A stretch of 61,522 bases of DNA from Synechococcales cyanobacterium bin59.metabat.ball.084 (GTDB lineage Bacteria > Cyanobacteriota > Cyanobacteriia > Cyanobacteriales > Chamaesiphonaceae). The stretch covers positions 1 to 61,522 of the forward strand of contig JAAFHZ010000009.1 of the NCBI GenBank assembly GCA_013297675.1, in the 5' to 3' direction. Of the stretch, positions 5,527-39,188 are shown one piece after another. Position numbers and translations under genes: made by a program. How positions within the stretch are numbered: the stretch's first letter is position 1; every line of letters starts with the position of its first letter. The notes under the pieces were generated by a model that worked only from the letters and a program-made list of their open reading frames with translations, was not told where the DNA came from and ran no database searches.

Positions 5527-6870
5527 TTAGCCAATAGCTCGATCGATCACCCATTGCTGGATGCCATTAGCTAAAACCTTGGCTAATCGCTGCTGAGTTG
5601 CAGGCTGCGCCAGATCAAAGACTTCTTCGGGGGAGGTCATAAAACCCACTTCTAGTAATACCGCTGGTGCAAACGTAGGACGAGCCACCGCAAAGCTTCT
5701 TTCGATTACACCGTTGTTATTCAAAATTGGGCGTTGGCCTACGCGGGCAAAATAGTTTAAGACGCTAGCGGCTAGGTTTTGAGACTGGGGATGATACCAA
5801 TAAATCGAAGTACCTCTGGCTTCTCGATCGGAGGAGTTATGGTGAATGGAAATCGAGAGAGCTGGCGCTGTTTGGTTAATGATGACCTGCCGATCGTCTA
5901 AAGATGGGTTCAGATCTGTGCTGCGGGTCATGGTGACAATTGCACCGCGTTTTTGTAGTTCTTTTTGTAGTTCTATCGATAGCTGAAGGTTTAAGACCTT
6001 TTCCATGTAGGTAGTGCCTTTGGCAGTACCCAATGCCCCAGAATCTTCTTTGCCGTGGCCGGGGTCTACGACAATTTTGATGCCTTTGAGAGGTTGAGAA
6101 ATATTCGAGATAATTTTGGGCGGCTGACGCAGAGTGAGCACCAAGGTATTGCTGTCATAGCGTAATCTATAACCCCATTGCTGCTTAGGTTTGAGTTGGA
6201 AGTTGAAACGGATGGCATCATTGCCGACTTTTTGCCAAGTGGCGCGATCGACCACTGGGTTAGTAAATTTGACGGTATTAGCCCATTTTTGAACTCTGTT
6301 GTTTTCAGTAAGAGTTGGAATGGTGCTGCTGGTGTTATGCAGAGTGAGGCTAAATGATCGATCGGCTTGGGCTACTTGGATGGGTACAGCGCTGCTGAGA
6401 GGAAACAAGATTTCGGTGGCTTCGGCTACTGCTCTAGTGCTGACATTGGTAAGCTGGGCGTTGGCTAAGGCCGGATTGTTCGCCAAGATTAATTCGGAAG
6501 ACTCGATCCAGGCTCCGTAGTCTAGCTGTGACCAAGCCACTGACTGACGCGATTTATTTGGGCCTGCGGCGGTGGCAACGACCCGAGCCTTGGTGCCTTT
6601 GGGTAAAGGGGTCAGCCTTGCACAGTCATCATCGGGGCCAAGTCTGGTAACACCGGCATCTTTGATTACTTGGTATACAGGAAAGCTAGATTTGTTGCTG
6701 ATAGCTGGCTGCACCAATCCGGTAGCGCAGACATTAACGGGAGTATTGGTTTCGACTGGTGGGGCTTGAGCAGCAGCCCCAGACCATAAACCCACTGCCC
6801 AGTAGGTGGCAGCAAATAGCCCAATTAGTATTGTCCAAGGTTTCCGGCGGCCAAAGATCGATCGATGCAT
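5527..6870 (-). CDS. N-acetylmuramoyl-L-alanine amidase (Amidase_3, AmiC type)
   Basis: A 447-residue exported enzyme with an N-terminal hydrophobic signal/anchor (about residues 13-34). A central beta-rich region resembles SH3/AMIN-type cell-wall targeting modules. The C-terminal Amidase_3 domain (about residues 265-440) shows the zinc and catalytic residues in VVDPGHGKEDSG, YMEKVLN, SISIHHNSS and LLEVGFMT. It cleaves the amide bond between muramic acid and the stem peptide, probably during cell separation or peptidoglycan remodelling. It is convergent with rppA. A second, Amidase_2-type amidase lies at 37652-38443. Confidence 0.9.
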   Translation of the reverse strand: MHRSIFGRRKPWTILIGLFAATYWAVGLWSGAAAQAPPVETNTPVNVCATGLVQPAISNKSSFPVYQVIKDAGVTRLGPDDDCARLTPLPKGTKARVVATAAGPNKSRQSVAWSQLDYGAWIESSELILANNPALANAQLTNVSTRAVAEATEILFPLSSAVPIQVAQADRSFSLTLHNTSSTIPTLTENNRVQKWANTVKFTNPVVDRATWQKVGNDAIRFNFQLKPKQQWGYRLRYDSNTLVLTLRQPPKIISNISQPLKGIKIVVDPGHGKEDSGALGTAKGTTYMEKVLNLQLSIELQKELQKRGAIVTMTRSTDLNPSLDDRQVIINQTAPALSISIHHNSSDREARGTSIYWYHPQSQNLAASVLNYFARVGQRPILNNNGVIERSFAVARPTFAPAVLLEVGFMTSPEEVFDLAQPATQQRLAKVLANGIQQWVIDRAIG

Positions 6871-25569: not shown

Positions 25570-25870
25570 GATGATACACTTTGCGAGAAACTGTGGTTTT
25601 GCTTATCTTAGCAAAGCATCAGGGGTGATTTCTACGGATAAAGTTTATCTGATGCCGAACAAGTTACCATTTGTTTCAGAAAGGCTGCGGCTGCTTGGAA
25701 CTGGCTAAATTTTCTTTCGCTGCGTTTGAATTCTGGGGTATTGTACCATTTGGGCGATGAGGTCGAGTTCTAGTAAGACATCGCTGCATTCGTTATTGGT
25801 TGATGTTGGTCTGTTGTTTAAGGATGTTTTTGAGTTTTAGGGGCAAGGTGGACATATACGTGATAACGCC
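25570..25870. other. 301-bp gap with a probable coding relic
   Basis: No complete gene is seen. On the minus strand a startless in-frame stretch at about 25723-25812 reads NECSDVLLELDLIAQMVQYP and continues to a stop. It looks like a gene relic rather than random sequence, but I cannot assign it. The promoter of the ABC exporter should lie near 25570-25640. Confidence 0.35.
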
Positions 25871-26200
25871 TTAGAACTGCAAGTTAATCGATTCTTGCCA
25901 AACTTTTTTTAACTCTACGGCATCTACTTCAGACAAATGACCGACTTTTTTCCGAAAAAGTGAATTTTCTAAACAATCTAATCTCGACAATCTCACTGTA
26001 GAAGCTACTTTTAGGCCACTTTCTAACCATTGATTCAATAGAACATCTGTAACCGTGCGAGGCTGAGCCGATGTTACCACCGCAACAACTGCATCTTGAC
26101 CATCAACCCACAAAACTAGCACTGGACGTTTTTTGGCATCAGCACCACTTGTGTATGGAATCTCAGCAATCCAAAACTCTCCTCCCCTAATAGTCGTCAT
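25871..26200 (-). CDS. MazF/PemK-like toxin
   Basis: 109 residues from MTTIRGGEFWIAEIPYTSGA, with KKRPVLVLWVDGQDAVVAVV and the C-terminal VGHLSEVDAVELKKVW. This is the pattern of PemK/MazF endoribonucleases. The ATG at 26200 overlaps the 3' end of the antitoxin gene by 14 bp. A longer frame (to 26230) is possible but puts extra residues before the family start. Confidence 0.75.
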   Translation of the reverse strand: MTTIRGGEFWIAEIPYTSGADAKKRPVLVLWVDGQDAVVAVVTSAQPRTVTDVLLNQWLESGLKVASTVRLSRLDCLENSLFRKKVGHLSEVDAVELKKVWQESINLQF

Positions 26201-26384
26201 AAAGTCCTTCATCTTCAGGTGCATAGCCATTCAAGAAAGCATTATGATTCCTAGTTTTATCAGTCTTTGATTCTGATGACTCTTCATTCTTGTGAGCAGA
26301 ATCAAGAATTCCTAGTACTTCTTGTAATACCGACTCGTTTGCTTGGGGCAGCTTTTGACTAATTTGTTCGATTAGAGTAAGCAT
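26187..26384 (-). CDS. Antitoxin partner of the MazF-like toxin
   Basis: 65 residues, acidic and helical (MLTLIEQISQKLPQANESVL ...), with the unstructured tail typical of antitoxins (EDEGLYDDY). It lies upstream of and overlaps the toxin gene. The N-terminal helix LPQANESVLQEVLGILD is reminiscent of DUF2281-type antitoxins. Confidence 0.65.
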   Translation of the reverse strand: MLTLIEQISQKLPQANESVLQEVLGILDSAHKNEESSESKTDKTRNHNAFLNGYAPEDEGLYDDY

Positions 26385-26478
26385 GATGTGAAGCCTCGAT
26401 CATTTGAAACTCTCTAATAGTCCATCATAACCAATTTTTTGTCGATTACTAAAAGCACAAGCAGATCTGTGAACTTGC

Positions 26479-26709
26479 TTAAAGACTAATCAAAGTCTCT
26501 GGAGTGAGTCCATTTGCTTCAGCTTCAGCACTGATATCATTCATTGTTTGCTTGAGGCGATCGACCGCATCTTGTTTGCTACCGGTGGCGACTTTTAGCA
26601 TCAAACCTATCCGAGTAGCAATTTGCAAACGTTCGGTTTCTGTGGCGCTGCGGTAAGCTGCCGCAACCGCTGAAGGTACCTGGATTGGAATCTCTTCTAC
26701 AGTGGCCAT
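26479..26709 (-). CDS. Small hypothetical protein, antitoxin-like
   Basis: 76 residues (MATVEEIPIQVPSAVAAAYR ...), helical, with DAVDRLKQTMNDISAEAEAN. Proteins of this look are common next to PIN or MazF toxins in cyanobacteria. No toxin gene abuts this one, and it ends 95 bp before the MazEF pair on the same strand. The role is inferred only from size and context. Confidence 0.5.
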   Translation of the reverse strand: MATVEEIPIQVPSAVAAAYRSATETERLQIATRIGLMLKVATGSKQDAVDRLKQTMNDISAEAEANGLTPETLISL

Positions 26710-26763
26710 AGTCTTCACCTATTCCTAAATTTGACTCTCTTCTTCTGCTAAGGTAACAGATTC

Positions 26764-26792
26764 GATCGCCTAAAGGCGCAAGCAAAGCTATC
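26764..26792 (+). repeat. Copy of a 29-bp dispersed repeat
   Basis: It starts GATCGCCTAAAGGCGC and ends AAGCAAAGCTATCA. It matches the repeat seen at 31279, 31706, 34033, 59215 and (minus strand) 44008. It is intergenic. Confidence 0.6.
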
Positions 26793-26901
26793 AAACAATT
26801 GATCGATGATGGGTAGCGCAAAAAAGAGTTGACAGATGTAGAGCTGTTGTTGATGAATAAATCACTTGCTAGACTAAGGGGGATTTTGGAGGAATTTACC
26901 A

Positions 26902-27336
26902 ATGACTGATCCGGTTACTGCTTTGACGGCTAGTGCGATCGCTACTCTGGCTTTTCAGGAGTTTGTGAAGTCTGGGGCTGGGGATTTGGCGAAGAGGTTT
27001 ACGGGGGAGGCGATCGCCAAAATGGGTCGGTTGCGGGAGTTGATTTGGGATCGGTTGGCTGGGAAGCATCCGGCGGCGGATGAGGCGATCGAGAAGGCTA
27101 AGGCTGGGCAGCAGGAGGGGATTGATAATGTTGCAGCGTTTTTAGGCTCAGAGTTACTTATTGATAAGGAGTTTGCTGGGCAGGTGCAGGCGATCGCGCA
27201 GGTAATTAATGCTGGGAAGTTGTTAGACCAGAATTCGATGGTTCAGCACATAAATGCAGAAAAAGCTAGAGCGTTGCAAGGTAAAGCGGAGGGTGGTGAT
27301 TTTTATCAGGCTGAAATTATGAATTTCAATCCTTGA
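26902..27336 (+). CDS. Helical N-terminal-module protein related to cyanobacterial NLR/TPR-type signalling proteins
   Basis: 144 residues. MTDPVTALTASAIATLAFQE and EFVKSGAGDLAKRFTGEAI resemble the N-terminal helical module found on many cyanobacterial NACHT or TPR proteins. That module is usually followed by an Asn/Gly/Gln-containing motif. Here the C-terminus QHINAEKARALQGKAEGGDF looks like such a motif, and the protein then stops. It may be a stand-alone adaptor or the remnant of a larger gene. A GGAGG ribosome binding site precedes the ATG. HIP1 sites are present here but vanish just downstream. Confidence 0.5.
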   Translation: MTDPVTALTASAIATLAFQEFVKSGAGDLAKRFTGEAIAKMGRLRELIWDRLAGKHPAADEAIEKAKAGQQEGIDNVAAFLGSELLIDKEFAGQVQAIAQVINAGKLLDQNSMVQHINAEKARALQGKAEGGDFYQAEIMNFNP

Positions 27337-27405
27337 CTAGAGTCGTCTGAAGGGGTACAGACAAAGACAAACTCCTCAACACTAGTAAGAAATGCCTTAT
27401 TTCCA

Positions 27406-27933
27406 GTGATCTTGATATCGATATCACTTGTACTCATAATAAAACAATCATTATATGTTTCCAATATAAGCTTGCTGAATTATGCTGATAAAGATAATAA
27501 CTTTATTCTCAAGTATCCTAATGACTGGGATCTAAAGAAGGAGGAAGACTCAATTCTTTTGTATGAAGTGGTTTCCTTTGTTCTACAATCAAGTTCTAAC
27601 CATACAAAAATTGTTGTTACCAAGGAAAAGTTGACTGAGCCAATGACATTATCAAGTTACATAGAAGAGAAGTACGTCAAGGGGTTAGAGAACTCCTCCA
27701 ATTTTAAGCAGTTAAAAATCCTTCAAAATGAAGATGCTATTTTTGCTAACCGTACAGCAAAAACACTTATTTACACGACTACTGTGGATAGCAAAAGCAT
27801 GAAATACATGGAAGTATTTGCTATGAAAGATCTCTATGTTTATTCAATAAGCTACAAATCCGAGATATCTACTTACGATAGATATAAGCCAGTAGCTGAG
27901 AAAATCATCCATTCATTTAAAATTATTCCGTAA
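27406..27933 (+). CDS. PsbP-like/DUF1795-like exported protein
   Basis: 175 residues. An N-terminal hydrophobic segment (ILISISLVLIIKQS) is followed by FILKYPNDWDLKKEEDSILL, then SSYIEEKYVKGL and a C-terminal YKPVAEKIIHSFKI. This is the layout of the PsbP/DUF1795 fold (yP.dW at the start, a final KI..SFk helix). A role in photosystem II is not implied, because the fold is widespread. The start codon is GTG with no in-frame ATG nearby. It is 1 bp from the trypsin-LytM gene, so the two are surely cotranscribed. Confidence 0.6.
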   Translation: MILISISLVLIIKQSLYVSNISLLNYADKDNNFILKYPNDWDLKKEEDSILLYEVVSFVLQSSSNHTKIVVTKEKLTEPMTLSSYIEEKYVKGLENSSNFKQLKILQNEDAIFANRTAKTLIYTTTVDSKSMKYMEVFAMKDLYVYSISYKSEISTYDRYKPVAEKIIHSFKIIP

Positions 27934-27934
27934 G

Positions 27935-29125
27935 ATGAAATCAATTAAAAAAACATTGATTATTATATTCACAACGTTTCTAATAGTTGTAATGTCTCAA
28001 ATTTCTGTTCTGTCACTGCAACAAAATGAAATCAGTGATATCGCAAAAAAAATAACCGTTGGTATTGAGGGTGATTTCTCTGGTTCTGGGGTAATAATCG
28101 GTAAATATCCTAATCAACATCAAGAGGCTAATGTTCAAGAAACATACCTAGTAATGACTGCATGGCATATAGTTGAGCAATCAGGCAAATATTCAATAAG
28201 GACTTTTGATGGTAAGCTTCATTCAGTTAATTCTCAAAATATTCAGCGCTTAGATAAAATAGATGTTGCAATTATTGAATTCACAAGTCAAGAGGATTAC
28301 TCAATTGCTAAAGTAGGCAATTCCAGTAAGTTAGAAGTAGGAACAACAATCTTTTATGCAGGATACCCAAATGAAGGCCCCCACAATACCAGAGGGTCAT
28401 ATTATTGTATACCAGCAACAGTCATTAGCTTGATTGAGGATAAAAACTCAGTAAACGGTTACAATATTAGCTATGATGGTCTTCCTCTTGATGGAATGAG
28501 TGGTGGAGCAGTTTTGGATAAAAATGGGGAGCTTATTGCAATTCATGGAGCATATGCCATACGTGCTGTAGTAGGGCGTGCTGAAAACTACGGTGTTTCA
28601 AGTGAAACATTTAAAAACTGGTCTCAGAAAACAGTATTAGCACAGCAAGAAAATATTTTCCCGGTAAAAACAAGGCACCTTGAATCAAGAGAGTTCTTGG
28701 ATGTTGCTTCCAATTTAAAACTTGTTTGGCCTACTTCTGGAATTTTAACTACTTCAAGAAGGTGGGGGAGACGAGAAGAAAATTGGACGAGTGCGAGGAG
28801 CAATAGAGGTGTTAATATCCCTGGCCCAATCGGTACTCCAATCGTAGCTGCTGCTGATGGTATAGTTGTTGAATCTAGCTATTTTAATTATTATGGCAAT
28901 GTGATCGAGATTCAGCATGTTAACGGTATTTCAACTTTTTATGCTCACAACAATCGCCTTGTGGTTTCTAAAGGCCAATCTGTAAAACAGGGTCAACAGA
29001 TTGCGGAAAGAGGTAACACTGGTCGGAGTAGTGGACCTCACTTATACTTTGAAATCAGAACCTCCGATTTTACCCCCCCTCGTCTTCACGCGAAATTTCA
29101 GCTTGATGAAGATCAAGGAATTTAA
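27935..29125 (+). CDS. Trypsin-like protease fused to a zinc-ligand-less LytM/M23 domain
   Basis: 396 residues: signal/anchor (8-28), trypsin-like domain (about 35-235), LytM/M23 domain (about 262-385). The triad is His78 (MTAWHIV), Asp110 (KIDVAII) and Ser189 (GMSGGAV), so the protease looks active. In the LytM domain the metal-binding HxxxD is replaced by Asn290 and Asn294 (SNRGVNIPG), and the second His of HxH by Tyr371 (GPHLYFEI). The two catalytic-type His (338 in YAH, 369) remain. All three zinc ligands are thus missing, as in degenerate LytM proteins such as EnvC that bind and activate amidases. It is cotranscribed with the PsbP-like gene. The AT-rich composition suggests transfer. Confidence 0.8.
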   Translation: MKSIKKTLIIIFTTFLIVVMSQISVLSLQQNEISDIAKKITVGIEGDFSGSGVIIGKYPNQHQEANVQETYLVMTAWHIVEQSGKYSIRTFDGKLHSVNSQNIQRLDKIDVAIIEFTSQEDYSIAKVGNSSKLEVGTTIFYAGYPNEGPHNTRGSYYCIPATVISLIEDKNSVNGYNISYDGLPLDGMSGGAVLDKNGELIAIHGAYAIRAVVGRAENYGVSSETFKNWSQKTVLAQQENIFPVKTRHLESREFLDVASNLKLVWPTSGILTTSRRWGRREENWTSARSNRGVNIPGPIGTPIVAAADGIVVESSYFNYYGNVIEIQHVNGISTFYAHNNRLVVSKGQSVKQGQQIAERGNTGRSSGPHLYFEIRTSDFTPPRLHAKFQLDEDQGI

Positions 29126-29138
29126 TTAGGTGCTGTAA

Positions 29139-29687
29139 TTAAAGCAAGTCATCTAATCGACTCAAAAACATGTTCATATTAACGTATGCTTCACCTTTTC
29201 TATAAGTAACTAGTTGATCGGTTAAATATAATGGGCGACCGTCTACTATTCGGCGCATGTCAAGCAAGTGGTTGAGTGCATCAATCCGATTGACTCCAGG
29301 GGGGAGAACGACAATTATATCTGTTTTGGCACATTCTCCATATTTAACACGAGCCACACAAATAACTCCTAGCCTATTGACTACATCTGTTTTAATATAC
29401 TTGAACCAGCCATTTTCAGAGTATGTTTGAAGTTTTCGAGAAGTATTTTCACATCGTTGCTTTGATGACCAACTAAAATATTCTGACTTCCATAAAATAA
29501 GTTTGATTTCATTTCCTTTACTAGTTCGTGCAATTGTTACCGGCGGTTCTCCATCTTTACAAAAATACCTGTCATTTGCAGCAACAGTAGGTACATATAG
29601 GCTCATAATCACTGAATTCATCGTTATTATTTTAACTAGAAAATGAAAAGTTTTTGAGCATCTTTCTATTTTATACTTCTTAGACAT
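29139..29687 (-). CDS. COP23-family exported protein
   Basis: About 182 residues with a signal peptide (ending near TVAAND). The mature part reads RYFCKDGEPPVTIARTSKGN, then CENTSRKLQTYSENG, VICVAR and VLPPGVNRIDALNHLLDMR. These match the COP23 (circadian oscillating protein 23) family, with its paired cysteines. The function of the family is not known. The ATG at 29687 is preferred over a TTG at 29702. It is convergent with the trypsin-LytM gene; COP23 domains often accompany trypsin domains in cyanobacteria, so the two may be linked. Confidence 0.7.
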   Translation of the reverse strand: MSKKYKIERCSKTFHFLVKIITMNSVIMSLYVPTVAANDRYFCKDGEPPVTIARTSKGNEIKLILWKSEYFSWSSKQRCENTSRKLQTYSENGWFKYIKTDVVNRLGVICVARVKYGECAKTDIIVVLPPGVNRIDALNHLLDMRRIVDGRPLYLTDQLVTYRKGEAYVNMNMFLSRLDDLL

Positions 29688-29795
29688 AAATTCAGGCTTC
29701 AATAAAGATGAGTTTGTGGTACAATAACTAAAAATATAAAGTTAATCATTATTTACTGATATAGAATATCGGTAGATTTTCAAAAGTCTTGATAA

Positions 29796-30095
29796 TCACT
29801 CAAAAGAATGAATGGATTCTTTACTTGGAACCCTCACAATGATTTGGATCGTGCCACCTAAAGCATTGATGATCGATTTCAACGTATTCAACTCCAAATT
29901 TTGGCGACGTTCTAGCTTAGATATAGCAAGCTGCTGCACCTCTAGCCGTTGTGCCAAATCTGCTTGCGACAAACTAAGATGTTTGAGCGTAACTTCTTCC
30001 TGCCGAATCTGCATAGACCTGGCTTCGATCGATTCTTGGCGATCTTTGGGTAAACTACTCAACTCTTCAGCAAGGGTTGTATATTTCCGCATCAT
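29796..30095 (-). CDS. XRE-type HTH orphan antitoxin, copy 1
   Basis: 99 residues (MMRKYTTLAEELSSLPKDRQ ...) with a Cro/C1-type helix-turn-helix (LSQADLAQRLEVQQLAISKL). It is a close paralogue of the copy at 31342-31662 but lacks about six residues just before the HTH (LKHL joins directly to SLSQ), which shortens the helix leading into it. Upstream there is only the tail of a HigB-like toxin frame (DEQYLETLKEKT, then a stop overlapping the ATG). The toxin itself is gone. Confidence 0.7.
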   Translation of the reverse strand: MMRKYTTLAEELSSLPKDRQESIEARSMQIRQEEVTLKHLSLSQADLAQRLEVQQLAISKLERRQNLELNTLKSIINALGGTIQIIVRVPSKESIHSFE

Positions 30096-30164
30096 GTTTT
30101 CTCCTTAAGTGTCTCTAAATATTGCTCGTCTCGTCGAAAGACCCCAGGAAATTAATTGGAGTCT

Positions 30165-31115
30165 CTATTTGCAACGCTCTAACCAAGACAACAAATCCCC
30201 TATCTGAGTAAAATCTAATAAATCATCACCCAGTATTTCCAACTGTTCCAGAGGCAGAGCTTTGATTTTTTCTTGGAGATCGATCGAGACATTACCAACC
30301 CGCCGACCCAACTGGCGAAAAACAAATTTGTACCCCTGCTCTTGACGGCCTTCTAGAATACCCTCTTGACGGCCTTTCCATTCGCCTTCCAATCGCACCC
30401 GACTCATCTCAGATTGGTAGATAGTATCTATTTCCTGCATGGTTCTCATAAAATCAGCTTCCTCTTCAGATAAAGACGGTTTCTCAGCTAAATACTTAAA
30501 ATGCTTGACACACACCTCCACGATAGCATTTCTCTCACGCTTTGTCCCAGGCAAGTCTCTAATATCAGCAAAAGCCTTAGTAAGAATTTGCTCCTTGCCC
30601 AAGCCCCTTAACCACAAAGTTTCAGCGATTTCAGGCAAGTCTTTAACGACCACAATCCCAATCTTAAATCCTGTGGGAAGTCGATATACTCCATTTCCCA
30701 GCTTACGATCACGCTTAGCCGCAAAAGATTTGAGCACCTCGGTACTGCATCCATTGACAACAATCCAAGTAAAAGGCTTTTGTGAATCGACAAATTCTCT
30801 CCCTTCTTTTTTAGCTGCTTTCGCCTCTTCATGAATATATAAGTCTTTGCGAGTCAAGCATCTATCGATGTGTCTTGGCTGTAGATAGTCACTATAGTGC
30901 TCAATGACGACTGTGGGATGAACTTTCATCAAGTTGTCAAACAATCCTAGATTTTCACTAGACCAGGCTTTACTTTGAGGATCGCTGACAAACAATAGAT
31001 CGATTTCCAAATTCTCATCGTTTTTGACAACTACATTAAGCTTGACAATCCCTTTGCTTTGATAAAGAGCCATAGTGTAAGCCTTGGAAAAATCGTCGTT
31101 TTGAAACTGACTCAT
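30165..31115 (-). CDS. Rpn-family recombination-promoting nuclease/putative transposase, DUF4351-type
   Basis: About 316 residues from MSQFQNDDFSKAYTMALYQ. The N-terminal PD-(D/E)XK-like region has LEIDLLFVSD and VVIEHYSDYLQPRHI. The C-terminal GRQEGILEGRQEQGYKFVFR and IKALPLEQLEILGDDLLDFT form the typical DUF4351 tail. Rpn proteins are nucleases linked to recombination and, more recently, phage defence. The family is highly repeated in cyanobacteria. The frame continues upstream to 31208 without a family-like start. It lies between two paralogous HTH genes. Confidence 0.7.
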   Translation of the reverse strand: MSQFQNDDFSKAYTMALYQSKGIVKLNVVVKNDENLEIDLLFVSDPQSKAWSSENLGLFDNLMKVHPTVVIEHYSDYLQPRHIDRCLTRKDLYIHEEAKAAKKEGREFVDSQKPFTWIVVNGCSTEVLKSFAAKRDRKLGNGVYRLPTGFKIGIVVVKDLPEIAETLWLRGLGKEQILTKAFADIRDLPGTKRERNAIVEVCVKHFKYLAEKPSLSEEEADFMRTMQEIDTIYQSEMSRVRLEGEWKGRQEGILEGRQEQGYKFVFRQLGRRVGNVSIDLQEKIKALPLEQLEILGDDLLDFTQIGDLLSWLERCK

Positions 31116-31199
31116 GGCATTGATAGAAAATGTTGAATCATGGCAGGTAAAATATTTTAAAACATTATAACTGGCTGGGCACCAGTATTTTTTTCTTCC

Positions 31200-31307
31200 A
31201 AGATGCACCCATCAGAGCCAAACAATGGCCATAAGTTATACTAAACCAATCCAGCCCCACTAGTCCCATGAGCGACCCGATCACCTTTGGTGCAAGCGGA
31301 GCTATCG
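31200..31307. repeat. Partial duplicate of the 32.67-32.74 kb sequence
   Basis: ACAATGGCC.TAAGTTATACTA and then CCACTAGTCCCATGAGCGACCCGATC recur at 32678-32738. Here the copied ATGAGCGACCCGATC start is followed immediately by the 29-bp dispersed repeat (31279-31307) instead of the gene. It is a truncated duplicate. Confidence 0.65.
31279..31307 (+). repeat. Copy of a 29-bp dispersed repeat
   Basis: It starts GATCACCTTTGGTGC and ends AAGCGGAGCTATCG. It interrupts a duplicated copy of the start of the gene at 32724. Confidence 0.65.
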
Positions 31308-31341
31308 AGACCATTAGTTCTACCAGATTCTCATTTGGGGG

Positions 31342-31662
31342 TCAAGATTCTTGATAATCACTCAAGAGAATTGGTTCTTTATTTGGCACCCTAACAATAA
31401 TTTCGATCGTGCCACCCAAAGCATTGACAACCGATCGCAACGTATTTAACTCCAGATTTTGACGGCGCTCCAGTTTAGAGATAGCTGGCTGCTGTACCTC
31501 TAGCCATTGTGCCAACTCCGCCTGCGACAAACCAAGTTTTTCGCGGAGATGTTTGAGCGTAATTTCTTCCTGCCGAATCTGCACAGCCTTGGCCTCGATC
31601 GATTCTTGGCGCTCCTTGGGTAAACCACCCAACTCTTCAGCAAGGGTTGTATATTTCCGCAT
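31342..31662 (-). CDS. XRE-type HTH orphan antitoxin, copy 2
   Basis: 106 residues with a full Cro/C1 HTH (LGLSQAELAQWLEVQQPAIS) and the C-terminal ALGGTIEIIVRVPNKEP typical of HigA-type antitoxins. It is the complete paralogue of copies 1 and 3. Directly upstream, a toxin-tail frame (RWYEQYLETIKEET) ends in TGA overlapping the ATG by one base. The cognate HigB-like toxin is therefore lost except for its last codons. Confidence 0.75.
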   Translation of the reverse strand: MRKYTTLAEELGGLPKERQESIEAKAVQIRQEEITLKHLREKLGLSQAELAQWLEVQQPAISKLERRQNLELNTLRSVVNALGGTIEIIVRVPNKEPILLSDYQES

Positions 31663-31733
31663 CAGGTTTCCTCCTTAATTGTCTCTAAATATTGCTCGTA
31701 CCATCGATCGGCTTTAGTGCAAGCGCAGCTATC
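31662..31733 (-). pseudogene. Remnant 3' end of a HigB-like toxin gene
   Basis: In-frame codons ADRWYEQYLETIKEET and a TGA overlap the antitoxin start (TGATG). The upstream part of the frame is replaced by the 29-bp dispersed repeat. The same toxin tail is found before HTH copy 1 (about 30095-30140) and copy 3 (about 33989-34040). Confidence 0.6.
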
Positions 31734-31734
31734 G
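31706..31734 (+). repeat. Copy of a 29-bp dispersed repeat
   Basis: It starts GATCGGCTTTAGTGC and ends AAGCGCAGCTATCG. It is identical to the copy at 34033-34061 and abuts the toxin remnant. Confidence 0.65.
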
Positions 31735-31798
31735 GCCACTGATATAGCTACCTTTACTCATGCACCAATTTCCAAGCCAGCAAGTCGATCGATCACTT

Positions 31799-31984
31799 TT
31801 AATAACATTGCGCCTCGACCTGATAAACTTTCTTCCCCAGACAAAAAAGCCAGAGCCAGATTATCCAAATTCTTTCGTTCCAACCTAACCCTCCTGTAAA
31901 TACGACTTGTTGTGGTAATTTCTCCAAAACCTTAGCAACTACTCCCAACATATCCACAGGATTATTACTACTCATCATTTTCAC
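31799..31984 (-). pseudogene. Truncated nucleotidyltransferase-like gene
   Basis: The first 30 codons (MMSSNNPVDMLGVVAKVLEK and PQQVVFTGG) look like the start of the nucleotidyltransferase proteins that normally follow the HTH gene at 31968, with a start overlapping its stop. After FTGG the homology ends and unrelated sequence takes over. A different frame there (about 31770-31890) reads LERKNLDNLALAFLSGEESL, so this is a junction of two gene fragments. Confidence 0.5.
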
Positions 31985-32483
31985 CCATGAGCCGCTGCCG
32001 CAAAAAATCTGCCGCTAACTGCTGCTCTCTTACCCTACCTACTCGCAAAGCATCTACCAAGCCCAATAGCTCATACAATTCCTGATCTTGCCTTGCAGCA
32101 TAGGGTACAGCCTTATATAGTGGCTCAATCTCAATCCCTCGCACAGTCCCTTGCGGATGTGCCCACACATAAATCTCACCCGCACTCACTATCTGCTCTT
32201 TTAACGGGTTAATACTATGTGCTGTGGGTATTCCTCTCACCATTTTTCCTGGCTCCACTGGATAAATATACTTCAAACCATGAATCAACAGCTCTAGCAA
32301 ATGATGGGCGATCGGTTGTTGTTTTAATGGATTGTATAACTTGCTGCCAGCACTCCTCTTCAATGATCCATGCACTTCTGAAGCACTCATATTAATGCTA
32401 TCTGCCAAGTCTCCATATCTCCATTCCCGAGACTGCCACAAATGTACTTTTAGTAAAATTAAAATATCTTGAGGTTTTAGCAT
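31968..32483 (-). CDS. Winged-helix DNA-binding protein, partner of a lost nucleotidyltransferase
   Basis: 171 residues (MLKPQDILILLKVHLWQSRE ...). The N-terminal segment WRYGDLADSINMSASEVHGS is a winged-helix type reader. The C-terminal half contains YVWAHPQGTVRGIEIEPLYK. I recall such proteins as the upstream gene of a two-gene unit with a nucleotidyltransferase-like protein, an AbiE-like layout. Here the second gene is truncated (31799-31984). The ATG at 32483 is preferred over a GTG at 32486. Confidence 0.6.
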   Translation of the reverse strand: MLKPQDILILLKVHLWQSREWRYGDLADSINMSASEVHGSLKRSAGSKLYNPLKQQPIAHHLLELLIHGLKYIYPVEPGKMVRGIPTAHSINPLKEQIVSAGEIYVWAHPQGTVRGIEIEPLYKAVPYAARQDQELYELLGLVDALRVGRVREQQLAADFLRQRLMGENDE

Positions 32484-32528
32484 CACATACCTGGTTTCTT
32501 TTCTCTATTCTACATTCATGAATTCCGA

Positions 32529-32690
32529 ATGGGTACATTTTTCTTAAACACACAATCAATACAAGACATTCCCAAACTAGCCCCAGCCATCATCCACTTA
32601 TCCGTTCACGAAGTGTCTCTGAAAGAGAATCGATCAACACTAAACCTAGTAGTCCAAGCCATACGTGAAGTCTGCCAACAATGGCCGTAA
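32529..32690 (+). CDS. Possible 53-residue protein preceding an effector-module gene
   Basis: ATG at 32529 to TAA at 32690 encodes MGTFFLNTQSIQDIPKLAPA ... KENRSTLNLVVQAIREVCQQ. Amphipathic helices and coding-like composition suggest a real or recently lost gene. It is 33 bp upstream of the 32724 gene on the same strand. The last codons and the spacer are duplicated at about 31216-31270. No family is recognised. Confidence 0.4.
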   Translation: MGTFFLNTQSIQDIPKLAPAIIHLSVHEVSLKENRSTLNLVVQAIREVCQQWP

Positions 32691-32723
32691 GTTATACTAG
32701 ATAAATCCAGCCGCACTAGTCCC

Positions 32724-32960
32724 ATGAGCGACCCGATCGAAGCCCTCTGTACCCTCTTACTAGATATTGCCAAAATCTCCCCCGGTGCCAACATCAACGA
32801 TGTCATGGCGCAAATCAAAAGCGCACTCGATCGAAATGCCAAATTAACCAACGCTCTCCAAACCGATACCCGGATGTTCCAGATTAACCTTGGTCAATCC
32901 AAAAGCTACCAGATGCTAGCGAGATCGACTCACCCAAGCAGCGGTCTTGCTGTGCGATGA
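32724..32960 (+). CDS. Effector-module-like protein, probably truncated
   Basis: 78 residues (MSDPIEALCTLLLDIAKISP ... ALDRNAKLTNALQTDTRMFQ, then INLGQSKSYQ). This resembles the helical module plus QIN.G...YQ motif that precedes larger domains in cyanobacterial signalling proteins. Normally a GG-containing motif and more protein follow. Here the last 12 residues look unrelated, so the 3' part has been lost. It is convergent with the HNH gene, whose stop is the next base. Confidence 0.45.
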   Translation: MSDPIEALCTLLLDIAKISPGANINDVMAQIKSALDRNAKLTNALQTDTRMFQINLGQSKSYQMLARSTHPSSGLAVR

Positions 32961-33380
32961 TTATAGTAGATTTGGATAAAGCCCTCGATCGATCAACGAT
33001 TGCCGGAGTTGAAGACGAGCAAATTCATTCATCTGTAACAAGAAAACCGTAGTGCGTCCGATCGCTGTCAACCCCACAATATAGGCATTTTCCACCTCAA
33101 AATGATCTGACCAAACCTGAATGCGAGGATTAAAAAGAGGTGTAATAACTCCAGCCATTGGATCGATACTTGTGAGATCGGAACCTTTATGACGATTGCA
33201 TGGCAAACAAGCAACGACTAAATTATCTTCAACGCTTTGACCACCATGCTTAGTTGCCACGACATGATCGATTTCATGACTATACATCGAAAAATTTTGG
33301 TGTATCAAACAGTATTCACAGACCCCTGCTGCTCGCTGGCTAACCAATTGTCTGATCAAAGCTGGAATATAAGCACTCAT
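32961..33380 (-). CDS. HNH endonuclease
   Basis: 139 residues. The HNH core is complete: CEYC, then SHEIDHVVATKHGG, DNLVVAC and CNRHKG, with both zinc CxxC pairs. Small HNH proteins of this type in cyanobacteria are usually encoded just downstream of an antitoxin-like gene, as here (4-bp overlap). They may act as nicking or double-strand nucleases, in TA-like or defence units. The target is not known. Confidence 0.85.
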   Translation of the reverse strand: MSAYIPALIRQLVSQRAAGVCEYCLIHQNFSMYSHEIDHVVATKHGGQSVEDNLVVACLPCNRHKGSDLTSIDPMAGVITPLFNPRIQVWSDHFEVENAYIVGLTAIGRTTVFLLQMNEFARLQLRQSLIDRGLYPNLL

Positions 33381-33760
33381 TGTTCAGTCGTTGGTTGGCG
33401 AAGCGTCGCAAACGCACGGACTTTTAGCAGGCCAATGAGGTTGTTGAGTTGTTCATAAAGATCTAGTTCAGCAATTTCTGTGTCAGTCAATGCTGCCTCT
33501 CTGTTTTTTTGGAGTAGCTGTTGTAAACGATTGTGTGAATTCTCTGAAACCTTAAAATCAACAATCTGCTCCGAAGTAGGACGACTGACCAAAAAATCTA
33601 GAATTTCTTGGTAAGTGGAATTGGCATGAGGCAAAACTGGTAGATTTTGTCTGAGTAAAGGAGTCGCAATTAGGCGAGTAAAAAGCTCAGAAAATTGACC
33701 TTGGAAAGGCGATAACTGATGAGCAAGTTCATCGGGAATATCAATAAGGATCTGAGCCAT
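33377..33760 (-). CDS. Antitoxin-like partner of the HNH endonuclease
   Basis: 127 residues starting MAQILIDIPDELAHQLSPFQ (a ribbon-like N-terminus). A helical C-terminal half follows (AALTDTEIAELDLYEQLNNL, LLKVRAFATL). The layout is the same as the protein at 17977-18369. The stop overlaps the HNH start by 4 bp. The frame extends upstream to 33829, but the ATG at 33760 fits the family. The antitoxin role is inferred from context. Confidence 0.65.
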   Translation of the reverse strand: MAQILIDIPDELAHQLSPFQGQFSELFTRLIATPLLRQNLPVLPHANSTYQEILDFLVSRPTSEQIVDFKVSENSHNRLQQLLQKNREAALTDTEIAELDLYEQLNNLIGLLKVRAFATLRQPTTEQ

Positions 33761-33846
33761 AGCTGAATGACGTTGAAAAAAACTTGGAGCTTTTAACCAT
33801 TCTACCTTCACAGAACACCCTGTGCCCAAAATCCACGGATCTAAGA

Positions 33847-33989
33847 GTCACACCAGATTCTTATTTGGAGTCAAGATTCTTGAGAGTTATTTCTTCCTGC
33901 CGAATCTGCACAGCCTTGGCCTCGATCGATTCTTGGCGCTCCTTGGGTAAACCACCCAACTCTTCAGCAAGGGTTGTATATTTCCGCAT
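33847..33989 (-). pseudogene. HTH antitoxin copy 3, internally deleted
   Basis: From the start at 33989 to about 33880 the sequence is nearly identical to the first 35 codons of the gene at 31342-31662. It then jumps to that gene's 3' end (CAGATTCT.ATTTGG, CAAGATTCTTGA). The HTH-coding middle (about 200 bp) is missing. The junction lies at a shared TTGA, suggesting a microhomology deletion. Confidence 0.75.
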
Positions 33990-34032
33990 CAGGTTTCTTC
34001 CTTAAGTGTCTCTGCATATTGCTCGTACCGTC

Positions 34033-34061
34033 GATCGGCTTTAGTGCAAGCGCAGCTATCG
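34033..34061 (+). repeat. Copy of a 29-bp dispersed repeat
   Basis: Identical to 31706-31734. It lies between the toxin-tail remnant of HTH copy 3 and the IS5-type element that starts at 34069. Confidence 0.65.
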
Positions 34062-34068
34062 GCCACTG

Positions 34069-34493
34069 AGAGGATGTCTGAGAACTCAAAAGCTACGCTA
34101 GTCGCCTGAGCATGATACGAATCATAGCTACATAGATGAATGTTTCTGAAGTTTCTGGCAACACCTCATAATCCTTCGATAAACGGCGTGACCAATTTAA
34201 CCAACCCCAAGTCCGCTCAACTACCCATCGCTTTGGTAACAGCTTAAATCCCTTCACATCGTCTGATCTCTTGATAGTTTCGAGAATCCAGTAATAAGTT
34301 TTCTTTGTCCATTCTCTAAACTCTGCCCCATGATAGGTTCCGTCAACCCAAACGATTACAAGCCGTCTGAGTCTCTCTGGAAAAGCCCCTAAACGCTCAA
34401 TGTACTCCTGTCTATTGGTTATTATTTATGACAGATTAGAGTATTTGGGCTTTCCTGTCACTACGCTATATCTGGAGTTTTCAGACATCCTCT
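34069..34493 (-). mobile_element. IS5-family element, internally deleted remnant
   Basis: About 425 bp bounded by 19-bp inverted repeats with one mismatch (AGAGGATGTCTGAGAACTC at 34069-34087 and its complement at 34475-34493). The inside is the C-terminal third of an IS5-type transposase on the minus strand. The rest of the gene is missing although both ends are present. It could still be moved by a full-length relative, MITE-like. Confidence 0.8.
34093..34430 (-). pseudogene. C-terminal fragment of an IS5-family (DDE) transposase
   Basis: The frame reads QEYIERLGAFPERLRRLVIV, VWVDGTYHGAEFREW, KGFKLLPKRWVVERTWGWLN and SRRLSKDYEVLPETSE before stopping at 34093. The RWVVERTxGWLN.SRRLSKDYE block is a hallmark of IS5-type transposases. 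The catalytic N-terminal part is absent. Confidence 0.8.
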
Positions 34494-34683
34494 TAGGATC
34501 TAATCCTGTTAATACTTTCTTTTAGTCTTGGGTTAATTATTGTTTGATATTTTTCCTCCTCGCCTGATCGGAGAAGATTTTTGATGTTGGTTAATATTTT
34601 GCCAGCCAAAACTTGAGCATCGAGTGATATGCTAGTGGCGGTTTGAATCAGTTCCTATCGACGATTTATTGGGTGCCTCTGCC

Positions 34684-37555: not shown

Positions 37556-37651
37556 CTGGAATGCTTAGTGAATAAATATTAACTAATGCAATCAAAATAT
37601 TGATGCTTCATTTATAATCTATTGTATTACAAACTTCACCAAGTTTATTTT

Positions 37652-38443
37652 ATGCCGTTTACCGCCAAAGTATTTACGACTGCCCAATGGGGAGCCAGGG
37701 ATGCCGATGTAGACGAGTTTGAACTCACTAAACCCATGTATGTTGTCATTCATAATACGGGTGACTCCAACCCCCCTAATGATCGATCGAAAGGTACTTT
37801 GCCAGGAGCAAAGCAGCTAGCCAAAGAAACTCAAGCTTTTCACATGGATGGTAATGGCTGGGCAGATTCTGGCCATAATTTTTTGAATACTACCGGGGGC
37901 TTTATTTTAGAAGGCCGTCACGGAACTTTGGGAGCGGTGCAGAAGGGTTTATGTGTGAGGTCTGCTCATGCGGCGCAAGATGCCGGAAAATTAGCCAGAG
38001 GTAATGAATCTCCGGGTATTGAAGTAGAAGGAAATTTCATGACTTTTACGATGGGCCAAAAACAATGGGATGCTTTGGTAGAGCTATGTGTATCGCTCTG
38101 TAGTTCTTGCAATATTGCCCCCGAAAATATTCGAGGCCATCGTGATTTTAGCGATACCGATTGTCCGGGAGATTTGCTGTATAGTCAGCTTCCTAAGCTA
38201 CGGCAAGATGTGGCGGCCAAGTTGGGGCTGGCTCCTATCAGTGATGTTTTGAAGCTGGGATCTAAAGGCTCTGCTGTGCAGAAATTACAAGTAGCTCTGA
38301 ATGCTAAGGGCTTTAATGTTGGTGTTGCCGATGGCATTTTTGGCGATGTGACCAGAAAGGCTGTGATAGATTTTCAGAAAAAGCAGGGGCTTACCCCAGA
38401 TGGCGTTGTGGGGCCAAAAACCAGAAAGTTACTGGGTTTGTAA
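37652..38443 (+). CDS. N-acetylmuramoyl-L-alanine amidase (Amidase_2/PGRP) with peptidoglycan-binding domain
   Basis: 263 residues. The Amidase_2 domain (about 1-185) has the first zinc His in YVVIHNTGD, further conserved residues in GIEVEGNF, and the second His and Cys region in IRGHRDFSDTDCPGD. A PG_binding_1 repeat (about 195-262, KGSAVQKLQVALNAKGFNVG) follows. No signal peptide is evident from the chosen ATG at 37652 or from the start at 37622. Export may be by another route, or the enzyme may recycle wall fragments. Confidence 0.88.
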   Translation: MPFTAKVFTTAQWGARDADVDEFELTKPMYVVIHNTGDSNPPNDRSKGTLPGAKQLAKETQAFHMDGNGWADSGHNFLNTTGGFILEGRHGTLGAVQKGLCVRSAHAAQDAGKLARGNESPGIEVEGNFMTFTMGQKQWDALVELCVSLCSSCNIAPENIRGHRDFSDTDCPGDLLYSQLPKLRQDVAAKLGLAPISDVLKLGSKGSAVQKLQVALNAKGFNVGVADGIFGDVTRKAVIDFQKKQGLTPDGVVGPKTRKLLGL

Positions 38444-38493
38444 ATTAAAGCTCATCACTATTACGGGTCTGCCGTAGGCGATCCAAAAACCTT

Positions 38494-38515
38494 AAACCAG
38501 CGATCGGCTGGTTTT
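38494..38515. terminator. Bidirectional terminator between convergent genes
   Basis: Perfect 8-bp stem AAACCAGC / GCTGGTTT with loop GATCG, followed by T residues. It sits between the converging amidase and GDT1-type genes and could serve both. Confidence 0.6.
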
Positions 38516-38525
38516 ATGGTGAATA

Positions 38526-39188
38526 TTATTTTCCAAGCCAAATAGTGAGAACTGCAAACAAAATAAACAGCAGTCCACCAACGATCGTAATAGTTTTTTC
38601 GGAGATGCGACCAGCAATCATTTTGCCGCCCCATACCGCAATCAAAGAACAAATGGCATGTCCGAGAATGCCTCCGATCGTTACTCCGATCGGGTTTTTG
38701 GCAGCAGCTAGAGTGATAGTGGCTATTTGGGTGCGATCGCCCCATTCAGCGACAAAAGTCAGCACAAAGCTTTTGATGACAATCTTCCAGAAAGTATTGC
38801 GCTGCCGAAACTTCCGATCGCCCACTTCAACCGCTGCTGCGGCTTCATTTCTCACATCTTCATCGGTTTGCGCCGACATTTGCCGAGACTCATACAAGAG
38901 CTTGAGGCCAAATAAGAAAAATAGTAGAGCAGCCACTTGCTGAATGGTAATTTTGCCCAGAAAAGCCAGACTAGCTGGTAACTGCTGCAATAAAAACTGG
39001 GGCAATAACATCAAAAAATGCCCGATGCCTACCGATAAGATGGTCATGGTGGCCAGTGCGCTGACCACGCCGATGAGCACGGGTTGGCGAGGATAGCGGG
39101 TAGCTAACACCACGGCCATGAAGAAGGTTTTGTCTCCTAGTTCTGAGGCGGTAATTAGTAGTAATCCAGCAGTCAAGGCTTTTAGCAT
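38526..39188 (-). CDS. TMEM165/GDT1-family cation exporter (Mnx type)
   Basis: 220 residues with six membrane segments and the family's two signature motifs, ELGDKTFF in the first half and EWGDRTQIAT in the second (E-x-G-D-[KR]-[TS]). A charged loop lies between the halves. The Synechocystis homologue Mnx exports manganese from the cytoplasm into the thylakoid lumen, so a manganese or calcium role is likely. The ATG at 39188 (MLKALTAGLLL) is chosen over an upstream start at 39221. Confidence 0.88.
   Translation of the reverse strand: MLKALTAGLLLITASELGDKTFFMAVVLATRYPRQPVLIGVVSALATMTILSVGIGHFLMLLPQFLLQQLPASLAFLGKITIQQVAALLFFLFGLKLLYESRQMSAQTDEDVRNEAAAAVEVGDRKFRQRNTFWKIVIKSFVLTFVAEWGDRTQIATITLAAAKNPIGVTIGGILGHAICSLIAVWGGKMIAGRISEKTITIVGGLLFILFAVLTIWLGK

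Follow-up and report, generated by a model that had tools for sequence, protein, structure and literature searches.

A cyanobacterial HtrA-like protease with a degenerate LytM tail and its COP23-associated gene cassette

What can be the role of a serine protease whose C-terminal domain is a cell-wall peptidase fold deprived of its metal site? This question is raised by one gene of the window (the whole stretch of DNA analysed here, 61,522 nucleotides). Its product, named P0001, is a protein of 396 amino acids encoded by an ORF without internal stop (Table 1). Pfam detects two domains in it and no other, Trypsin_2 (residues 50-203, 67.4 bits for a cut-off of 27.6) and Peptidase_M23 (PF01551, residues 289-376, 109.1 bits for a cut-off of 28.7), which bears out the fusion of a trypsin protease to a LytM domain described in the original prediction. 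The protease domain, with the residues His78, Asp110 and Ser189 of the triad all present, appears active from its sequence, as had been proposed. The M23/LytM domain is the C-terminal one; no PDZ domain was found in P0001 and LysM gave no Pfam match. At the N-terminus, the helix predicted by the structure model (residues 3-20) resembles a signal or an anchor, and the protease is probably exported.

Table 1. Positions in the window of the fusion gene, of its motifs and of the surrounding features.
Feature	Position	Strand	Basis
HtrA/trypsin-like protease with degenerate LytM (M23) domain, P0001	27935..29125	+	ORF, Pfam, structure models, fold matches
Protease domain, residues 30-229, triad H78/D110/S189 intact	28022..28621	+	Pfam, alignments, fold match
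LytM domain, residues about 259-377	28709..29065	+	Pfam, alignments, structure models
Nine-residue insertion (about residues 279-287) ahead of the first zinc motif	28769..28795	+	Alignments
NRGVN replacing HxGxD (Asn290, 28802-28804; Asn294, 28814-28816)	28802..28816	+	Alignment, codons
His338, retained catalytic His ('YAH')	28946..28948	+	Alignment, codons
HLY replacing HxH (His369 kept, Tyr371 instead of the zinc-ligand His)	29039..29047	+	Alignment, codons
COP23 family gene, convergent with the protease gene	29139..29702	-	Pfam COP23, 91.9 bits
Frame with hydrophobic (probable transmembrane, by eye) segment and PsbP-like domain; ORF 27406-27933	27337..27933	+	Pfam PsbP_2/PsbP
Single in-frame TGA between the 144-aa ORF and the PsbP frame	27334..27336	+	Reading frames
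144-aa ORF, same frame as PsbP	26902..27336	+	ORF call; no Pfam, PADLOC or NCBIfam match
Segment mostly absent from the sister species G001, containing the cassette	25649..34624		Genome comparison

In the M23/LytM peptidases, we take the positions 290, 294 and 371 (numbering of P0001) to be the zinc ligands, that is to say the His and Asp of HxxxD and the second His of HxH, and the positions 338 and 369 to be the catalytic histidines. In P0001 the first three residues are Asn, Asn and Tyr (codons AAT, AAT and TAC) and the last two are still His. The multi-alignment with 46 LytM relatives reveals His at the positions 338, 369 and 371 in all 46 sequences, and His and Asp at the positions 290 and 294 in 43 of them; the three others (L005, L006 and L038) are cut or misaligned at this place, where the motifs HNGID and HNGTD can be read by eye in L005 and L006. 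Among the close LytM relatives, His290, Asp294 and His371 are each conserved in 34 sequences of 34. The loss of all three zinc ligands and the retention of both catalytic His, on which the original prediction was founded, are therefore confirmed. P0001 departs from 12 of the 49 invariant columns, the three ligands being among these 12, and the divergence of its LytM domain is thus wider than the zinc site. Under random column change, the chance that all three ligands are included is 0.012; it is 0.10 when both catalytic His, which are kept, enter the count as well (three of five active-site columns changed, 13 of 50 overall), and the loss of the active site is without significance when all five columns are considered. 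The nine-residue insertion is absent from the close relatives aligned and its loop is modelled at low confidence, and the alignments show that the 'YG/FG' pair is missing from the P0001 LytM domain. A sequencing error would have to affect three separate ligand codons, and no alternative alignment restores a ligand because the residues 268-290 contain no His. P0001 exceeds the Pfam threshold of the M23 family without possessing the HxxxD and HxH ligands of its active zinc peptidases.

In the model of P0001, built from an alignment of 44 rows, most of the protease and most of the LytM core reach pLDDT values close to 90 or higher; the values drop below 50 at the residues 241-263, 266-290 and 379-396. 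The residues 28-237 adopt a fold of the HtrA type in this model, with Rv0983, AlgW and DegP at the head of the 50 matches listed (Z 22.4-24.3 over 169-195 residues); DegS is also among the fold likenesses of the protease (Z 22-24). Modelled alone from 15 rows, the LytM part has a mean pLDDT of 71 and matches ShyA, DipM and EnvC with Z values of 17-19. The core strands (residues 293-375) are modelled with high confidence, and the core is still modelled as LytM. Of the two computational checks suggested at the outset, structure prediction gives a LytM fold and alignment with M23 proteins shows that the zinc ligands are lost. With the HtrA/Deg proteins, P0001 shares the predicted fold and the H/D/S triad but not the C-terminal PDZ domain; its NCBIfam score for DegP/HtrA is 38.1 bits for a cut-off of 416.2, and the scores for the HhoA type are likewise far below.

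The protease domain of P0001 belongs to a distinct clade of 24 rows (FastTree support 0.949). A clade of 38 rows is supported at 0.97 and 24 of its rows are located in a COP23 locus. We have coined for this group the name of COP23-cassette protease clade, in which P0001 is placed both by its protease domain and by the convergent COP23 gene that follows it. The COP23 family is named for circadian oscillation. To describe the surroundings, we retained 80 protease loci from named genomes, the best 80 of at least 387 confirmed relatives; the flanks reach 4 kb at most, and several of the contigs stop before that. A COP23 ORF is present in 50 of these best 80 loci, the 30 others having none in the DNA at hand, and a PsbP ORF is present in 29 of the same 80. 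Starting from COP23, 20 of 30 loci, drawn from among the COP23 genes with the best scores in 60 genomes, have a trypsin ORF within 1.5 kb. For the 12 other trypsin-like loci of the source genome, COP23 is found within 1.5 kb in none. The genes that recur beside the related proteases are thus those of COP23 and PsbP. In many relatives the COP23 gene and a shorter protease gene precede the long protease gene on one strand. Eight PsbP-bearing proteins (from 8 of the 29 loci) were scanned: a protein kinase domain is present in seven of them, and a CHAT domain in the eighth, that of locus L156; their transmembrane segment was called by eye. The loci L156-L235 and L089-L135 show repeatedly COP23, a short HtrA-type protease and a long protease with a varying tail, sometimes with a kinase-PsbP gene. 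One of these kinase-PsbP partners (L168:6536-8035, minus strand) reaches 437 bits over its residues 8-308 with the kinase model of PD-T4-6 in PADLOC. The PADLOC scan of nine proteins gave single-domain matches alone, those of the trypsin domains being weak (LmuA, up to 56 bits).

The tails of these proteases are highly variable. Among the 24 clade members, 15 carry GUN4, five Pilin_GH, one DUF2808 and one M23. In a wider set of 62 proteins (one from each of 59 of the 79 other named loci, 20 loci being omitted, in addition to P0001 and the two L156 copies), GUN4 is found in 18 proteins and WD40 in 16, according to the 25 of 144 families listed. The WD40 proteases do not belong to the nearest clade (38 rows) but appear in the next one (75 rows), which contains 19 of them; 17 of the 29 WD40-bearing proteases sit in a COP23 locus. 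In the genome G034, the loci L098 and L110 encode closely related proteases with unrelated tails, which is a tail swap.

The fusion to LytM looks rare. Among the best 80 of the at least 387 relatives, only one other species possesses it, an uncultured cyanobacterium (locus L156, CAIVAU010000205.1), where the gene order is CHAT-PsbP (plus strand), protease-LytM copy a (plus), COP23 (minus) and protease-LytM copy b (plus). Beyond these best 80, other fusions may exist. P0001 and both L156 copies form one protease clade (SH-aLRT 99; FastTree 0.997). Copy a (L156a) is degenerate in a different manner, with His290 kept, Asp294 replaced by Lys, His369 by Ala and His371 by Gln. Copy b (L156b) has an intact active site. 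Two of the three fused LytM domains are therefore degenerate, by different residues. A close homologue with an intact HxxxD, which the original prediction had named among its grounds for refutation, does exist: it is L156b, a tandem paralogue in another species, located beside the differently degenerate L156a. Short peptide patterns of P0001 found no relatives, and no close orthologue was found by the searches in the sister species, the family, the order or the phylum. No full-length fusion was seen in 11 genomes of the family, nor in 388 genomes of the order and 386 of the phylum (overlapping sets; E <= 1e-37; only the best four candidates being scored in nearly every genome listed). None of 3701 matching plasmid records covers 80% of the query. 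A phage origin was also considered and is unsupported: 0 of 473 phage matches are full-length, and the viral contigs gave three loci, all partial.

In the window, the order is PsbP (plus), protease-LytM (plus) and COP23 (minus). The COP23 gene has the same place and strand as that of L156, with 52% identity, and the PsbP domain, whose frame is separated from the protease gene by one base, is nearest, among the loci compared, to the PsbP part of the CHAT-PsbP protein of L156. Of the kinase- or CHAT-linked partner only the PsbP frame is there: the kinase or CHAT part is missing, a TGA stands ahead, and the 144-aa ORF occupies the position of the kinase or CHAT domain in the relatives scanned. 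Neither a second protease gene nor a kinase nor a CHAT domain was found alongside in the window cassette. Within 26902-27933, the GC content is 0.51 before the TGA junction and drops to 0.34 after it; for the cassette, which is rich in AT, it is 0.34-0.41, versus 0.44 for the window. In the segment mostly without counterpart in G001, the exceptions are a match of 366 bp at 31347-31712, a LytM match at 69% and others of at most 58 bp; the flanks are on different contigs of G001, so that no clean insertion site can be drawn. Genes for a MazF/PemK-like toxin, two HTH proteins (XRE-type) and an HNH endonuclease were noted in this segment (25871-26230, 29796-30095, 31342-31662 and 32961-33380, all on the minus strand). 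On the L156 contig (L283/L284, contig 205 of the genome G669), five phage-type integrase ORFs were detected among ten scanned, together with matches to transposases of the IS605 and Mu types. ParA/ParB-like genes were also seen by eye on this contig. The cassette may well move between genomes.

In the comparisons made, the nearest relatives of the LytM tail differ from those of its surroundings. For the protease (48-51%), the COP23 (52%) and the PsbP (38%) of the window, L156 is in each case the nearest of the loci compared. For the LytM domain of P0001, the nearest relatives are the M23 peptidase C90 encoded by the same genome (60%, 71 residues of 118) and that of the sister species (support 96/88, 41 rows); these two peptidases are the top two matches after P0001 itself in the 291 genomes searched. 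Similarly, the L156 tails are nearest to a resident M23 ORF of 747 amino acids (78-80% for copy b, support 96/100), their comparison with other genomes being made by tree rows alone. Independent capture of the LytM tails in the two species is favoured and not proven. The rival scenario, one ancestral fusion later homogenised by the resident gene, is disfavoured, although the AU test does not reject a single clade of the P0001, L156a and L156b tails (p = 0.406 without and 0.076 with the resident peptidase of G669). Between L156a and L156b, the LytM parts have a dS of 0.44 and the protease parts a dS of 1.57; the former thus look younger than the latter, which suggests that tails move or convert between copies. 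The DUF2808 tail of L110 was submitted to the same capture test against 28 genomes and shows no special closeness to its own genome (42-44%, for 44-45% to two others).

The LytM domain of P0001 has the longest branch of the tree of 37 rows (1.8; 1.65 after addition of the G669 residents). Relative to the consensus, P0001 has 32 changes of its own against 13 for L156b (chi-square 8.0), 27 against 16 for L156a (chi-square 2.8), and L156a has 12 against five for L156b (chi-square 2.9). The dN/dS between the LytM parts of the two L156 copies is 0.34, hence below 1, a rough count over 124 codons that averages both copies; for their protease parts it is 0.12, at the high dS of 1.57.

HtrA proteases are gated by PDZ domains, and the reading that we favour, with about as much confidence as doubt, is that P0001 is a variable-tailed protease of the COP23 cassette whose dead LytM domain, in the PDZ position, binds something and places or gates a periplasmic protease. 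A LytM domain that has lost its zinc ligands and yet forms one chain with a protease that looks active is most likely put to regulatory or binding use, and the very different tails borne by the cassette protease in other species suggest that the dead enzyme serves as a binding or sensing part. P0001 would be exported to the periplasm, with the LytM tail occupying the place of the PDZ domain of HtrA/DegS-like proteases; the groove of the dead domain may bind peptidoglycan peptides or a fitting protein, and the bound tail would then place or gate the protease. The signal would probably be passed to the neighbouring PsbP-like partner, tied to a kinase or to CHAT in the relatives scanned and putatively placed in the membrane. 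Dead LytM domains are known as regulators of wall hydrolases, and the tail of P0001 may act in one of two described manners: by binding of a peptide or a partner in its groove, as for DipM (PMC10336132), or by an effect on its own chain, as for PrgK, whose LytM domain is reported to lower the activity of another domain of the same protein (PMC11323569).

The main rival is decay, in which the zinc site was lost by drift in the LytM tail, perhaps in a whole copy of the cassette, the protease remaining active. We consider it unlikely, and it is nonetheless serious because the window cassette is incomplete: the PsbP partner gene is cut by the TGA and deprived of its kinase or CHAT part, no second protease was seen beside the fusion and the sister species has no full-length match. 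Relaxed selection would give, likewise, the long LytM branch and the 12 changed invariant columns; the insertion, the loss of the conserved C-terminal end and the excess of own changes relative to L156b are other traits expected from decay. On the other side, the ORF is intact and the changed columns include those of all three ligands, with the reservation stated above for the count on five columns. The beta core is kept in the model, at high confidence, and L156 offers an uninterrupted ORF whose tail is degenerate in another manner, the LytM dN/dS between its copies being the rough value given above.

Somewhat less probable again is an activator of the EnvC/NlpD type: by docking, the dead LytM domain would free a wall amidase from its inhibition, with the protease in attendance. 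The original prediction had proposed such docking; the part that stands is a zinc-dead domain with a likely regulatory or binding use, and docking on an amidase is possible, with nothing that supports it specifically. The two amidase genes attributed to the window both exist, but the second begins at 37622 and not at 37652. The Amidase_3 gene (5527-6870) is 21 kb from the fusion gene, and its product can be aligned to LytH, CwlV and AmiC2 along some 175 residues with no long insertion; its alignments with AmiC and AmiA stop at 361-374. In the E. coli-type amidases, the regulatory arm targeted by the LytM activators lies in this region. The other gene (37622-38443, 8.5 kb away) encodes an Amidase_2 with a peptidoglycan-binding domain (Pfam), hence an amidase of another class. 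Like the fusion, this gene has no full-length match in G001, which speaks in favour of a link between them; its flanks are adjacent there, and it is therefore regarded as accessory. The stretch missing between these flanks corresponds to 37557-38526. Around the L156 cassette, no amidase was seen by eye among the ORFs of a 9-kb region.

Comparison with the LytM regulators themselves gives a mixed picture of P0001, which has a degenerate metal site in a LytM fold but remains far below the NCBIfam cut-offs of the four families: 55.6 bits for 270 with EnvC, 63.9 for 311 with NlpD, 67.5 for 375 with ActS and 63.1 for 740 with DipM. Its best NCBIfam scores are obtained with peptidase models. The resemblance to the activators includes two single residues, Asn290 as in NlpD and Tyr371 as in EnvC; over the LytM domain as a whole, the identity is of 47/117 with NlpD and 39/114 with EnvC, versus the 71/118 of the M23 peptidase of its own genome. 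The nearest relatives being active resident peptidases, and no LysM being detected by Pfam, these data argue against an activator. L156a scores higher with NlpD (101 bits) and DipM (94 bits) than with the peptidase models (up to 87 bits), the NlpD match including residues located before the LytM domain. In a cyanobacterium, the LytM factor Alr3353 is reported to activate the amidase AmiC1 (PMC11351039 and PMC6463045), and for this reason amidase docking stays among the possible functions.

A more doubtful explanation considers the tail as an integrated decoy, a bait copying a host envelope protein, contact with an invader triggering the protease and its membrane partner. The dead LytM domain would lure an agent directed against the M23 wall peptidases of the cell itself; once the copy is touched by an invader, or by a damage signal, the protease would be unleashed and would signal through the kinase- or CHAT-linked PsbP partner. 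More generally, and with the same small probability, the cassette could be a periplasmic counterpart of the integrated-decoy immune receptors, its tail being repeatedly swapped for a copy of a host protein and disarmed after capture. It is consistent with this idea that an M23 peptidase of the same genome is the nearest relative of each LytM tail, the other parts of the cassette being nearest to those of the other species, that other tails are pilin-like or GUN4, and that a partner kinase matches a PADLOC kinase model. However, independent capture is unproven (AU p = 0.076), the DUF2808 tail of L110 has no particular proximity to the genome that carries it, and the PADLOC matches are limited to single domains, with weak trypsin scores.

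It is very improbable that the LytM domain still works as a peptidase, with a metal held by other ligands, for although His338 and His369 are both kept, all three zinc ligands are replaced and the insertion provides no His. Least probable of all is an artefact of assembly or sequencing: the genome is a draft of 220 contigs, but the three substitutions fall exactly in the ligand codons, the insertion is in frame in an uninterrupted ORF of 396 codons' product length, and the same fusion and gene order are present in another assembly, that of L156.

Compared with known systems, P0001 resembles HtrA, DegS and DegP by its predicted protease fold, its triad, its exported-looking N-terminus and the presence of an extra C-terminal domain. 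This domain is PDZ in the HtrA, DegS and DegP proteins, LytM in P0001 and GUN4, Pilin_GH, DUF2808 or, more distantly, WD40 in its relatives. With EnvC, NlpD, ActS and DipM it has in common a LytM fold with a degenerate metal site; it differs from them by its fusion to a serine protease, the lack of a Pfam match to LysM, its proximity to active resident peptidases and the retention of both catalytic His. PrgK of pCF10 likewise combines a dead LytM domain and a second enzyme domain in one chain (PMC11323569), but the partner is a muramidase and the protein belongs to plasmid conjugation, whereas the partner in P0001 is a protease. Another parallel is the GUN4-trypsin polypeptide of cyanobacteria, mentioned in PMC7159879, which is a related protease with a sensor-like tail; P0001 differs by its LytM tail and its COP23/PsbP context, and neither COP23 nor M23 occurs in the text of PMC7159879. 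Dead LytM regulators and GUN4-trypsin associations are thus already known (PMC10336132, PMC11323569 and PMC7159879), as are HtrA proteases. The term COP23 is also absent from PMC10907252 and PMC8195603, and M23, EnvC, SpoIIQ and DipM are absent from the review PMC11266112. No description of a LytM-HtrA fusion or of a COP23-protease-PsbP cassette was found among the matches listed (titles and openings of abstracts), which does not prove its absence.

If the favoured reading is true, a dead wall peptidase that gates a protease would couple the state of the cell wall to regulated proteolysis. The existence of a tail and of its resident peptidase as a pair makes the question of capture followed by disarming directly testable. 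In addition, the recurrence in many cyanobacteria of a cassette with COP23, one or two HtrA-type proteases whose tails differ and a PsbP partner linked to a kinase or to CHAT gives COP23 a testable context. Two loci show COP23 near the start of longer ORFs, of 639 amino acids (L117:121-2037) and 621 amino acids (L119:148-2010), the rest of the former being CHAT-like by eye.
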